This document shows positions 5,299 to 14,302 of a stretch of 30,578 bases of DNA, one piece after another. A model generated the notes under the pieces. It had not been told where the DNA came from. It was given only the letters and a program-made list of their open reading frames with translations, and did not search any database. The stretch lies in IMG/VR virus record IMGVR_UViG_3300042341_000061, positions 1 through 30,578 of that record; one strand, 5' to 3'. The stretch comes from a virus. Numbering within the stretch: the stretch's first letter is position 1; each line of letters starts with the position of its first letter. The position numbers and the translations under genes were made by a program.

Positions 5299-5456
5299 TT
5301 GTTATCTATTAAGTTCATATATCTTTCTTTTAGTTGGTCAAATTCTTCCTGTAGCTTTTCGTGTTTCTGTACCAACTGATAATATTTATCAATTAACTCA
5401 GCGTAATTATTTCTAATCTCACTCAAACTATGGTATGTGTTTTCAGATTCGCTCAT
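5295..5456 (-). CDS. Small coiled-coil protein after sigma factor gene (53 aa)
   Basis: The ATG (5456-5454) lies within the last codons of the sigma-like gene (stop at 5443, 14-nt overlap). The gene ends with TGA at 5297-5295, which shares bases with the next ATG. The sequence (MSESENTYHSLSEIRNNYAE, then 'YYQLVQKHEKLQEEFDQLKERY') shows heptad-like hydrophobic spacing, so a coiled coil is likely. It could be a partner or anti-factor of the neighbouring sigma protein, but this is speculation from position only. Confidence 0.6.
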   Translation of the reverse strand: MSESENTYHSLSEIRNNYAELIDKYYQLVQKHEKLQEEFDQLKERYMNLIDNK

Positions 5457-6015
5457 AATCTCCATTCAAATAATCCTGATAGTCTTCTCCTACATTCTCA
5501 ATCAAACGTTGCTTACAGTGCTTTATAGTGTGAAATATAGACGTTACAGATATTTTAGTTAACGCAGATAACTCACGCATAGAATGATTGTTTTCTTTAT
5601 ATAACTTAAACAACATCGTATCGTACCAATGCCAAGAATCTATCTCCATATATATCTTTAACTCAATATCGTTTTTAGCTTTCTCCATTCCGGTAACCTC
5701 AATATCCTTTATATCTAAGGCATCGTTTACAGTTACCTTTTCAATCTTAGATTTTTGTTTACAATAGTCTACATAAATATTACGTAATACAAACCATATA
5801 AAACCTTGATTTACTTGTCCGTCTTTTATTATCTTCTCTGGGTTCGTGTATTTGTAGATTCTTAAATACATCTCCTGCACTATGTCTTCTGAGTATCGGT
5901 CTTCTCCAAATGATTTAACCACCGATATAAAGTGCTTATGGTGTTTTGCTACCGATGCTAACCACTCTGAACTATTCTCAGTTGTCTTCGTTTCTATACA
6001 ATCGGCTAATAACAT
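5443..6015 (-). CDS. Phage-encoded sigma-70 family (ECF-like) RNA polymerase sigma factor
   Basis: The 190-aa protein has the two-domain layout of an ECF-type sigma factor. A region 2-like part (about residues 20-88) includes 'YSEDIVQEMYLRIYKY' (core polymerase and -10 binding) and 'FIWFVLRNIYVDYC'. A region 4-like helix-turn-helix (about 128-172) contains 'HSMRELSALTKISVTSIFHTIKHCKQRL', which would contact the -35 element. The linker is acidic. It lies downstream of the early replication genes and upstream of terminase and all structural genes, so it is well placed to redirect host polymerase to late promoters. This agrees with the absence of the host-type TATATTTG box between late genes. 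Target promoters are not known. Confidence 0.82.
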   Translation of the reverse strand: MLLADCIETKTTENSSEWLASVAKHHKHFISVVKSFGEDRYSEDIVQEMYLRIYKYTNPEKIIKDGQVNQGFIWFVLRNIYVDYCKQKSKIEKVTVNDALDIKDIEVTGMEKAKNDIELKIYMEIDSWHWYDTMLFKLYKENNHSMRELSALTKISVTSIFHTIKHCKQRLIENVGEDYQDYLNGDYERI

Positions 6016-7970: not shown

Positions 7971-8239
7971 AACAACTCTTTAAATTCATTATTTTCTCGC
8001 TTCAATTTTAAATACTCCGTATGATACTGAGCAAGTCTTTTAATTAACTGCTTGTTCTCATCTTCCATAGCACTTAGAGTATCTCGTGTTTCACTCATCC
8101 ATATTTCGTATTTCTCTAAGGTTTCTATTAAATCTTTTCTGTGTTCGTGTTTCTCTCGTAAATCGTGTAGAGAAAGTCGGATGCTTCCTATAATCGCATT
8201 TAAGGAAGTCTTAGCGTGTATTACATCAAATAAATTCAT
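7967..8239 (-). CDS. Coiled-coil protein of unknown function (90 aa)
   Basis: The start at ATG 8239-8237 (MNLFDVIHAKTSLNAIIGSI) lies one base after the ATPase stop (TAA 8243-8241). The longer frame from 8263 has no support. Nearly the whole chain is helical, with heptad repeats from residue 25 to the end ('LEKYEIWMSETRDTLSAMED'). The end overlaps the NinG start. It may be a structural partner of the replication ATPase, for example a loader-like coiled coil, but that is only from its place between ATPase and NinG. Confidence 0.66.
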   Translation of the reverse strand: MNLFDVIHAKTSLNAIIGSIRLSLHDLREKHEHRKDLIETLEKYEIWMSETRDTLSAMEDENKQLIKRLAQYHTEYLKLKRENNEFKELL

Positions 8240-8240
8240 A

Positions 8241-9152
8241 TTAAAAAGGGAGTTTATCGTCAAAGTTATTATTATGTTCTAAAGGTTTTAATCCTTGCGC
8301 TTCTCTTATTATTGGGTTAACGGCATCAATGGTAAATCCTAATCCGTGATTATAGTAAAACATTAACGGAGAATTGCTCATCGTTTGTGTACCGCCTGTA
8401 TCTTTGTCCTTTATTTTATCAATATCAATAAGTGTAAAATATTGCATTGATTCTAATTTAGTAAGTCTATGTACATTAATCCAATCGTCACACATATTAG
8501 CAAATATTTTTCCACCTTCAGCCATTGATTTATTAGGAATCATTGGTTGACCTTCCCATTCGTGACCTTTTGGATATTCACTTATTTTTCTTCCAGATGC
8601 AGTCACAGGATGCATTGATAGATATGCAGTCTTTTTATTAATCTTGCACCATCTTTTTAAGCTGCGTATAAATTTAATGTTGCTTTCATAATTCATATCG
8701 TGGTCTAACTGATTAAATGGGTCTATAAAATATCCATCTGCAGGTATTGATTCAAATTCTTTTAATAAGTCTTCTGGTTTATATTGTTGACGGTTGTCAA
8801 TAAAGAAAAAATAATCTTCTAAATAATCATTATACAAATCAATTTCTTCGTGCGACAAATTTTTAAATGGTATGCCAGAATACATTTGTATTAAATCTCT
8901 TAATACTTGTCCTTTTGAATTCTCATCCATCCATATTCCCCATTTTAATTTATGATTTGTAGTCAAAGCTAACATATACCAAGTCATAAAATAAGTTTTC
9001 CCGACATTGTCTCCTCCAAGAATTCCATTATACTGACCTACTTTAAATCTTAAATGCTCATCTAACTTACATCCAATGCCTAAACCTTGTGCAATTTTTC
9101 CCTCTTTATAATCGTGCAAGTATTTTCTTGCGCTTCCGTTACTTAATACCAT
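8241..9152 (-). CDS. RecA/DnaB-like replicative ATPase (helicase candidate)
   Basis: The start is taken at ATG 9152 (MVLSNGSARK), which overlaps the previous gene by 14 nt; a start at 9176 is also open. Walker A 'GGDNVGKT' is at residues 46-53 and the Walker B strand 'GYFIDPFNQ' at about 140-148. A later strand 'AYLSMHPVTA' and 'DIDKIKDKDTGG' match the RecA-fold core of DnaB and Twinkle-type helicases. At 303 aa it lacks a primase or an N-terminal DnaB domain. It follows a replication-initiator-like gene. The C-terminus ends 'FDDKLPF', like the peptide tail by which SSB recruits partners. I am confident of the ATPase fold and less so of helicase activity; a RecA-like recombinase is the alternative. 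Confidence 0.84.
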   Translation of the reverse strand: MVLSNGSARKYLHDYKEGKIAQGLGIGCKLDEHLRFKVGQYNGILGGDNVGKTYFMTWYMLALTTNHKLKWGIWMDENSKGQVLRDLIQMYSGIPFKNLSHEEIDLYNDYLEDYFFFIDNRQQYKPEDLLKEFESIPADGYFIDPFNQLDHDMNYESNIKFIRSLKRWCKINKKTAYLSMHPVTASGRKISEYPKGHEWEGQPMIPNKSMAEGGKIFANMCDDWINVHRLTKLESMQYFTLIDIDKIKDKDTGGTQTMSNSPLMFYYNHGLGFTIDAVNPIIREAQGLKPLEHNNNFDDKLPF

Positions 9153-9780
9153 ATTGCTCTTGTAATTTCTTAGCACGTTGTACTAATGGGTCAATACTTA
9201 AAGGTTGTTTAGTAAGTTCTGTCGAACTTTTTTCCCAAGTACGAATACAGGCTTTCCAATCTTTCATTTTATTCTTACCTACCATCCAACCTTTTGAATC
9301 GTAAAAGTCTATAAATTTATTTACATCTACGTTATTCTTTCTTTCATTGCAATATTCAGCAACTTGTAAAAATGTAGGTGCTATAAACATATTCTTTTCT
9401 CTTATCTTCTCTTCTCTTATAGCATTGCTTTTGCTATGCACTTGCAATGCATTTGCATCACTCCATCTCTTTTGTGCAGCTTTACTGCGTTTTTGACTAA
9501 CATTATTAAACTCTGATAGTTGTTTATCAAGGAATTTTATATAAATATTATCTTCATTTTTATCAACCATTCCTGTATCAATTAACTCCTGCAATATATT
9601 TGCATCACGTCTGCAATACTTTTGCAATGCAAATGCATAGCTAATGCATCCAAGTTTTAACCAATAGCCAGAACATAAATTAATAAAACATACAATTGCT
9701 TCATCTGAACAAATTTGTATTTCTCCTTCTAACCATTCAGAAGGTTCGTGTTTATAGTACGGTAATTCTTTAGCCATCAC
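9139..9780 (-). CDS. Replication initiator / helicase-loader-like protein
   Basis: This 213-aa protein has a winged-helix-like N-terminal domain with 'PSEWLEGEIQICSDEAIVCFINLCSGYW' in two parts (residues 13-40), a Ser/Lys/Arg-rich linker ('KSKAAQKRWSDAN', 'NAIREEKIREKN'), and a C-terminal 'FIDFYDSKGWMVGKNKMKDWKACIRTWEKS' motif (about residues 147-176, given in pieces). That C-terminal motif is common in DnaD/DUF4373-like replication proteins of Bacteroidota phages. It sits directly before the replicative ATPase. The gene contains five TGCAAT motifs and two 19-bp near-repeats, so the origin may lie inside it, as in lambda O. The peptide DANxLQ occurs twice (residues 59-64 and 108-113) because of these repeats. 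Confidence 0.78.
   Translation of the reverse strand: MMAKELPYYKHEPSEWLEGEIQICSDEAIVCFINLCSGYWLKLGCISYAFALQKYCRRDANILQELIDTGMVDKNEDNIYIKFLDKQLSEFNNVSQKRSKAAQKRWSDANALQVHSKSNAIREEKIREKNMFIAPTFLQVAEYCNERKNNVDVNKFIDFYDSKGWMVGKNKMKDWKACIRTWEKSSTELTKQPLSIDPLVQRAKKLQEQYGIK
9348..9638. repeat. TGCAAT repeat cluster, origin candidate
   Basis: TGCAAT occurs at 9348, 9443, 9590, 9612 and 9623 (plus strand). Two copies extend into a 19-bp near-repeat, 9443-9461 and 9590-9608, matching at 17 of 19 bases. ATGCAT and TTTGCAT units lie between them, and 9623-9638 is partly palindromic. The cluster lies within the initiator-like gene. Iterons inside the initiator gene mark the origin in lambdoid phages, so I infer a replication origin. 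Confidence 0.5.
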
Positions 9781-9962
9781 TTCTCAGATTTGATTTGTTT
9801 TTGTATGTGATGTAATGCTCCTATTAACTCGTATAATCCACGCTCATCAATAAAAACAATCTTAACTGCATTCTCATCTGCAATCCCGATTTTGATAGTA
9901 TCGTAACTATCAATTTCAATTTGTAAACTTCTTTCGTTTACACAATCCAAAACGTACTTCAT
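9777..9962 (-). CDS. Hypothetical early protein (61 aa)
   Basis: The ATG 9962-9960 (MKYVLDCVNERSLQIEIDSY) is chosen because the longer frame from 10019 runs through a terminator-like hairpin and encodes an odd aromatic stretch (WLFYFIYF). The protein is a small alpha/beta domain with strands 'TIKIGIA' and 'AVKIVFID' and a basic end (HHIQKQIKSEK). The TGA at its end overlaps the initiator start. No function is recognised. The RNA element upstream may control its expression. Confidence 0.6.
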   Translation of the reverse strand: MKYVLDCVNERSLQIEIDSYDTIKIGIADENAVKIVFIDERGLYELIGALHHIQKQIKSEK

Positions 9963-9970
9963 AAAATAAA

Positions 9971-10067
9971 TAAAATAAAAAAGCCACTTTAAATCCCAAG
10001 CATCCGACCTCTTGTTCATTAAAATGGCTTAAAAACTCTTTAGCGTTTATAATGTCGGATGAACGCT
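9971..10067 (-). ncRNA. Structured leader or small RNA with two hairpins and complementary loops
   Basis: Read on the minus strand, hairpin 1 is AGCGTT/AACGCT (10067-10062 with 10047-10042), and its loop holds CATCCGAC (10061-10054). Hairpin 2 is AAGCCATTTTAA with TTTAAAGTGGCTT (10030-10018 with 9993-9981), and its loop holds GTCGGATG (10008-10001), the exact complement of the first loop. The eight-base loop-loop match would form a kissing complex or pseudoknot. Hairpin 2 is followed by a T-rich tract (9980-9971), as in an intrinsic terminator. A TATATTTG promoter box lies just upstream (10079-10072). It could be a free small RNA of about 95 nt or an attenuator for the 61-aa gene. No known RNA family is recognised. 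Confidence 0.55.
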
Positions 10068-10071
10068 TGTA

Positions 10072-10079
10072 CAAATATA
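10072..10079 (-). promoter_or_regulatory. TATATTTG -7 box before the RNA element
   Basis: The minus-strand sequence TATATTTG matches the Bacteroidota -7 consensus. It lies in the 22 nt between the SSB-like gene's stop codon and the first hairpin arm. I do not see a convincing TTTG-like -33 element 18-20 nt further upstream, so it is weaker than the 14243 and 7097 promoters. Confidence 0.45.
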
Positions 10080-13981: not shown

Positions 13982-14220
13982 ATCTCATCAAGGCTTTTAA
14001 GTTTATCAATCACTATCTGGTAGCTTCTCCATAATCTACCTAATCCACGTTGGCAGGTATCAATAACATTCTCTGAATGCTCGCGAAAGTTGTTAGGGAT
14101 GGCTATTTCTGCATTGTACCGTAGCATATTATCTATTCGGTTCTGCATTCCTTCGCATAAGTAAAGCAATTCGTTTGCTTTTGCGTGAAGTTCTAAGGCT
14201 TCTTTAATCTGTTTTTTCAT
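13978..14220 (-). CDS. First early gene: helical protein of unknown function (80 aa)
   Basis: The start is placed at ATG 14220 (MKKQIKEALELHAKANELLY), since the frame from 14256 would include the promoter box at 14250-14243. The leader between box and ATG is 22 nt, unstructured and A-rich. The protein is mainly helical ('ANELLYLCEGMQNRIDNMLR') with one cysteine and an Arg/Trp-containing C-terminal helix. As the first gene after the strongest early promoter it is a candidate host-directed early protein. No family is recognised. Confidence 0.66.
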   Translation of the reverse strand: MKKQIKEALELHAKANELLYLCEGMQNRIDNMLRYNAEIAIPNNFREHSENVIDTCQRGLGRLWRSYQIVIDKLKSLDEI

Positions 14221-14242
14221 CTGTTTTGTATTATTGTTTCGA

Positions 14243-14272
14243 CAAATATAATACAATTGTTTATAACTGCAA
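14243..14272 (-). promoter_or_regulatory. Main early promoter (Bacteroidota type)
   Basis: On the minus strand TATATTTG (14250-14243) matches the -7 element TAnnTTTG, with TTGC (14272-14269) 18 nt upstream at the -33 position. It lies in the gap after the phosphoesterase terminator and just before the first early gene. This is the best promoter I can see, and it separates the late and early modules. Confidence 0.72.
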
Positions 14273-14302
14273 TACTTTTAAACAAATTATTTTAATTATT
14301 TT

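Follow-up and report, generated by a model that had tools for sequence, protein, structure and literature searches.

In the copy-control RNAs of plasmids (ColE1 RNA I/II, CopA/CopT and the pT181/pIP501 attenuators), which control replication, loop-loop contact decides specificity and the loops diverge by compensatory change. The C4 antisense RNA of P1-like phages (RF01695) is transcribed ahead of, and from the same strand as, the genes that it controls; in the pRNA of phi29, two loops covary between phages and pair between molecules; and known attenuators may act through RNA or protein in trans. In P4, the CI RNA pairs with the leader and thereby stops transcription ahead of the replication genes (PMC4825925).

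Charting of structured RNAs in phages of the Bacteroidota is still sparse. Within a stretch of 30,578 nucleotides from an IMG/VR virus record (the whole of which we call the window), we find an RNA with two hairpins whose loops can pair with each other, a member of a structured RNA family that is real and conserved and, apparently, undescribed. As in P4 CI RNA/seqA-seqC immunity, a short RNA comes from the untranslated start of a replication operon, whose predicted leader contains self-complementary segments; these lie on the same strand, as in CI, and termination, predicted here, falls before the replication genes (PMC4825925). The P4 CI RNA arises by processing and has two pairing sites in the leader, whereas here the promoter, both pairing loops and the terminator form one compact unit of 92 nt. 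The carriers of the RNA include mumin-type phages, which are described as virulent, i.e., lytic only (PMC7077304), and lysogenic immunity is therefore not its obvious purpose in these phages.

A search of the window against Rfam 15 gave no match at the gathering threshold and, at a permissive threshold, a best weak match with an E-value of 0.77; among 18 relatives, only an unrelated DUF805b element was recovered, elsewhere in L215. We also found no published description of a kissing-loop leader RNA, subscription journals lying mostly outside the coverage of the literature search. These results agree with the preliminary description, which had considered the RNA new. In contrast to the C4 RNA, to which neither the window nor the 18 relatives gave an Rfam match, the present RNA has a different structure; and unlike the phi29 pRNA of packaging motors, it lies with replication genes and has a terminator-like end, the terminase large subunit and portal genes being 7 kb or more away. 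In the plasmid copy-control systems the antisense transcript comes from the opposite strand, whereas here both loops lie on the same RNA. The opposite strand of the site in the window also folds, and inspection of the relatives by eye showed no conserved TAnnTTTG entering from that side.

Genes for a terminase, a portal, a NinG-like nuclease and replication are present in the window, almost all of them on the minus strand, and the RNA is situated on that strand between a gene for a single-strand-DNA-binding-like protein and the 61-aa gene that opens the replication operon (Table 1). Four bases separate the TATATTTG box from hairpin 1, whose stem consists of AGCGUU (10067-10062) and AACGCU (10047-10042). 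The outer stem of hairpin 2 is formed by AAGCCAUUUUAA (10030-10019) and UUAAAGUGGCUU (9992-9981), and encloses an internal loop (UGAA/GGAU), an inner stem (CAAG/CUUG) and a loop made up of AG followed by GUCGGAUG. The hairpins, the upstream box and the U tract after hairpin 2 are arranged as had been described from the sequence. An 80-aa open reading frame with its start at 10019 overlaps the RNA; this is probably not where the 61-aa gene really begins.

Table 1. Coordinates of the RNA, its parts and the adjacent genes in the window.
Feature	Position	Strand	Basis or remark
Upstream gene, single-strand DNA-binding-like, 78 aa	10102..10338	-	PHROG single strand DNA binding protein
-7 box TATATTTG of Bacteroidota primary sigma factor	10072..10079	-	consensus TAnnTTTG
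Predicted transcript, about 92 nt, hairpin 1 to U tract	9977..10067	-	-7 box spacing; covariance models R1/R2
Hairpin 1, 6 bp, loop CAUCCGAC + AUUAUA	10042..10067	-	
Loop segment K8a CAUCCGAC, partner K8b	10054..10061	-	loop of hairpin 1
Linker between hairpins, 11 nt	10031..10041	-	
Hairpin 2, terminator-like	9981..10030	-	outer stem 12 bp, inner stem 4 bp
Loop segment K8b GUCGGAUG, partner K8a	10001..10008	-	loop of hairpin 2
U tract of predicted intrinsic terminator	9977..9982	-	3' of hairpin 2
First downstream gene, 61 aa (MKYVLDC...)	9777..9962	-	relatives all start MKYVLDC/MKYILDC
Primosomal/replication-initiation-like gene of operon	9139..9780	-	PHROG matches; relatives annotated DUF4373 / replication initiation protein

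The minimum-free-energy fold contains both hairpins with both loops open. Because its energy is only mildly unusual (z of -1.4 for a 131-nt stretch and -2.0 for the 96-nt RNA), the fold is unconvincing by itself, and the comparison with relatives is decisive. When a descriptor based on structure alone was combined with the TAnnTTTG box, exactly one site in the window was recovered, the RNA reported here, against 0.0 per shuffled window (40 shuffles). The RNA at 10067-9977 is beyond chance by this combination of structure and box, and then by its relatives.

Searches with the 78-aa gene as query led to 50 viral loci and those with the 61-aa gene to eight, most of which have the same layout with other sequences. 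In the first alignment (n = 20), 20 pairs had changes on both sides, and a covariance model made from it, which contained the nested stems only and left out the loop-loop pairing, found new members in loci fetched via the replication protein and the helicase, with E-values down to 7e-15. The 25 new members outside the training of the model provide a clean test of the loop-loop pairing. Their 11 distinct loop pairs are all complementary, with 100% of positions paired as opposed to 65% in re-paired loops, and 0 of 20,000 permutations in a re-pairing test reached the observed complementarity. Covariation of the loops in related phages had been named as a check on the kissing-loop pair CAUCCGAC/GUCGGAUG, and it lends this pair strong support. 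Across 46 distinct relatives there are 19 different 8-nt loop pairs, 18 of them complementary in register and one, the allele of the L011 group, pairing after a shift of one base; the distinct loop pairs gathered in total number 29.

The 46-member alignment shows covariation in every helix, including that between the loops, at values reached in 0 of 500 shuffles. Changes on both sides occur at six of six pairs in hairpin 1 (with 94.4% of cells paired), at nine of the ten modelled pairs in the outer stem of hairpin 2, at all four pairs of its inner stem, and at six of the eight pairs of the loop-loop helix, the last two of which (AC/GU) are constant. Homologues of the predicted transcript align over all 95 model positions. 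In its common form, hairpin 1 has a stem of 5-6 bp and a loop comprising the 8-nt code and an AYUAUA-like tail; hairpin 2 has an outer stem of 9-12 bp, an internal loop, an inner stem of 3-4 bp and a loop in which two bases, mostly AA or AG, precede the 8-nt code. The internal loop is UGAA/GGAU in 24 of the 46 relatives, and in some members it is AAGUA/GAAA, which we take to resemble the loop-E (bulged-G) motif, or has the reverse orientation. The linker measures 12-16 nt by alignment columns in all 46 relatives (13-15 in 42), and a U-rich tract lies 3' of hairpin 2 in every relative read.

The primary sigma factor of the Bacteroidota has TAnnTTTG as its -7 element, the G being at -5 (PMC7366714, PMC6847099). 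In 37 of the 46 distinct relatives this element lies upstream of hairpin 1 and ends 3-6 nt short of it, against a background of 0.00077 per strand-base, and most of the nine relatives without an exact copy at hairpin 1 have near-matches. This spacing places the predicted +1 of the 37 members on or beside the first base of hairpin 1, and that of the window at 10067, next to the start near 10066 that the preliminary description had anticipated. A scan for E. coli-type promoters yielded no support, as expected for Bacteroidota. The window also contains a sigma-factor-like gene (190 aa, 5443-6015, minus strand; PHROG E-value 1.2e-5), which might drive later phage promoters.

At the other end of the RNA, a downstream open reading frame was found in 35 of 36 loci, and in these 35 an ATG follows the U tract at a distance of 13-40 nt, an interval too short for the downstream gene to have its own promoter there. 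The stop codon of the upstream gene, at loci where the end of that gene was found, precedes the RNA by 17-35 nt, and in lillamy- and hattifnatt-type phages a terminator-like hairpin (GCCU...AGGC followed by U8) occurs just upstream of the RNA promoter. With no room for a second promoter, and with such a hairpin upstream, the downstream genes should need read-through of the RNA terminator and hence depend on the RNA promoter. In most relatives the RNA is directly upstream of genes for a replication initiator, a primase or a helicase, and this conserved context corroborates the earlier assignment to a replication region. The position before a 61-aa gene is true of this phage and its close kin, and other phages have other genes there: one RNA allele can precede up to four different genes, and one gene can follow different alleles.

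Alleles of the RNA have been exchanged as blocks, as is evident from pairs of loci with near-identical flanks and dissimilar RNAs: L016/L034 (flanks 94% and 98% identical, RNA 65%), L017/L018 (92% and 96%, RNA 63%) and L036/L040 (93% and 96%, RNA 65%). The loop duplexes are much stronger within than between alleles (mean of -10.7 kcal/mol for cognate vs. -2.4 for non-cognate loops), a separation that is imperfect in that 18 of 866 non-cognate pairs reach -8 kcal/mol or lower. As a wider target of the loop in trans, we considered one further copy of CAUCCGAC on the minus strand of the window (near 8176, inside a gene) and rejected it as compatible with chance.

Because transcription is predicted to start at hairpin 1 and to meet a terminator before the operon, an attenuating leader is the simplest reading of the locus. 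We give an even chance to the proposal that the RNA acts as a new structured leader and attenuates the replication operon, yielding a terminated product of about 92 nt with an allele-specific self-pairing code. The host primary sigma factor would initiate transcription at the first base of hairpin 1, and hairpin 2 would act as an intrinsic terminator, such that most transcripts would end as a stable RNA of about 92 nt and operon mRNA would arise solely from read-through. The loop of hairpin 1 and the apical loop of the terminator could pair over 8 bp to form a rod-like kissing complex that tunes termination. The narrow range of linker length (12-16 nt) seems to favour pairing within one molecule; because the loops are mutually complementary, pairing between molecules is chemically equally possible. 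The short RNA, once accumulated, could probably pair as well with nascent leaders made by phages of the same type, which may produce a feedback on copy number or superinfection that is limited to matching alleles. In line with such recognition, the far greater strength of cognate duplexes and the exchange of alleles as blocks suggest that leaders of the same type may be recognised by the terminated product, with an effect comparable to that of P4 CI RNA.

The layout is that of an attenuator leader, with a promoter, a structured leader, a G+C-containing hairpin with a U tract, and then a start codon. The preliminary description had also proposed one long alternative stem, extended by CAAG/CUUG, that would compete with both hairpins; direct reading of the relatives argues against it, in that the CAAG/CUUG extension is not kept in them, and a search for an antiterminator fold in these relatives gave no other alternative. 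Both hairpins can coexist with the 8-bp loop-loop helix. That no antiterminator is conserved lowers our confidence that the RNA belongs to the attenuators as a class, and does not lower the claim that it works like one. A further point against an attenuating leader is that the first downstream gene varies, which means that the RNA is not adjusted to any single gene.

This same variability would be expected of an autonomous cassette, and it favours a stand-alone phage small RNA, capped by a hairpin at both ends and acting on a host RNA or protein, which we hold to be unlikely, if still credible. The location of the terminator would then reflect genome compaction, and downstream genes would be read from upstream transcripts. 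The discrete predicted start and stop of the RNA agree with this alternative, and the conserved loop tail (ACAYUAUA), linker and UGAA/GGAU internal loop are possible protein contacts. However, the loops diverge completely by compensatory change, as they would without a conserved external target, and the terminator-like hairpin upstream in mumin-type phages speaks against the expression of downstream genes from upstream transcripts. Between the regulated leader and the separate small RNA that the preliminary description had offered, the geometry points rather to a leader that ends in a terminator.

The placement of the RNA between recombination/SSB genes and replication genes, together with the shuffling of alleles against their flanks, could alternatively mean that hairpin 2 is a passive insulator, marking the end of one transcription unit at the border of a module, the kissing loops merely stabilising it and the alleles moving because module borders recombine. 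We regard this as improbable: a plain terminator needs neither hairpin 1 nor a promoter at +1, nor a loop code that is kept complementary across all the distinct loop pairs gathered. The proximity to genes for replication initiators, primases or helicases in most relatives would also suit a replication-origin RNA, i.e., a transcript that, like plasmid RNA II, acts as a primer or positioning element for phage DNA synthesis. This last explanation appears highly improbable, given that a second copy in mumin6-1 precedes an endonuclease gene, that one Pedobacter copy is not beside a recognisable replication gene, and that no origin repeats were identified.

If the attenuating leader does act in trans, it might serve in phage self-recognition: the terminated leader RNA would pair only with leaders of the same allele and shut off their replication operon, and virulent phages would sort into RNA-coded exclusion groups, swapping the code by recombination. 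We consider this extension doubtful. Exchange of whole alleles between phages that are about 95% identical suggests selection on RNA self-recognition, though it could also be neutral mosaicism. Such recognition would extend to phages described as virulent, a setting in which RNA immunity is unexpected. The RNA is small and widespread in aquatic Flavobacteriia phages, and the family would supply naturally near-orthogonal kissing loops; because it is present in cultured phage-host pairs, its action is directly testable.

Among these cultured phages, the Flavobacterium phages morran9-1, lillamy9-1, hattifnatt9-1, snusmum6-1 and mumin6-1 have the two loop types exchanged between hairpin 1 and hairpin 2, as does L067: the loop of hairpin 1 is AA or AG plus GUNNNNNN, and that of hairpin 2 is NNNNNNAC plus five bases. 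The codes of the morran/lillamy/mumin group (GUGAGAAG/CUUCUCAC, GUGAGACG/CGUCUCAC and GUGGAACG/CGUUCCAC) form a covariation series, and Cellulophaga phage phi19:1 has a 7-bp version of the loop-loop helix (GUACGAC/GUCGUAC). The descriptor that combines structure and promoter identified one site each in morran9-1 and phi19:1 and two sites in mumin6-1, compared with 0 to 0.025 in each shuffled genome; the counted matches are only those with G+C in the loop code and a promoter, since without the promoter requirement the descriptor gave many AT-rich chance matches in phage genomes and a few chance matches across the fetched loci. The two copies in mumin6-1 precede two gene groups and have unrelated loop codes. 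The second of them (L232; 11670-11765, site 11684; GUCGUCG/CGACGAC) lies before a NUMOD4-type endonuclease gene.

Related elements, judged by eye from single sequences, were present in two Pedobacter genomes, directly before a replication gene in one (L207) and with UGAA/GGAU kept in the other (L206/L222). In Nekkels_1 (L231/L235), the gap before gp88 holds what is seemingly an elaborated relative with two apparent loop contacts, also read by eye (AUUGGAA/UUCCAAU, and GUCUAAC/GUUAGAC with the linker). A search for prophage copies in 199 Flavobacterium genomes, with stricter filters that can miss weak matches, returned two model matches, each of which proved on reading to be a simple terminator. 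Metagenomes make up most of the source collections, and the host range past Flavobacteriia and Sphingobacteriia is uncertain.

In morran9-1 (L233), the RNA at 14157-14300 is publicly annotated as hypothetical protein gp042, which is probably a spurious open reading frame. Morran9-1, lillamy9-1 and phi19:1 share a small conserved hairpin, AGGUAAUCUUAAAACCU / CGGUAAUCUUAAAACCG, which stands after the RNA and ahead of the start codon (L215 6335-6365; L230 around 2750-2785); it has no Rfam match at E-values up to 1, and its closing pairs covary.

The window itself contains a second candidate structured RNA (10910-10810, minus strand), which lies before an HNH gene, has a TATATTTG box and gave no match in Rfam. 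Its closing stem, AAACGUGGA/UCCACGUUU, encloses two inner hairpins, and a loop, GCAGUUA, is complementary to two downstream copies of UAACUGC immediately ahead of the ATG. The corresponding stem in L043/L055 is AACGAGGA/UCCUCGUU, with a loop, GCGUUUA, whose pairing partner is UAAACGC; because stem and loop have changed in a matched manner, this candidate covaries as well.
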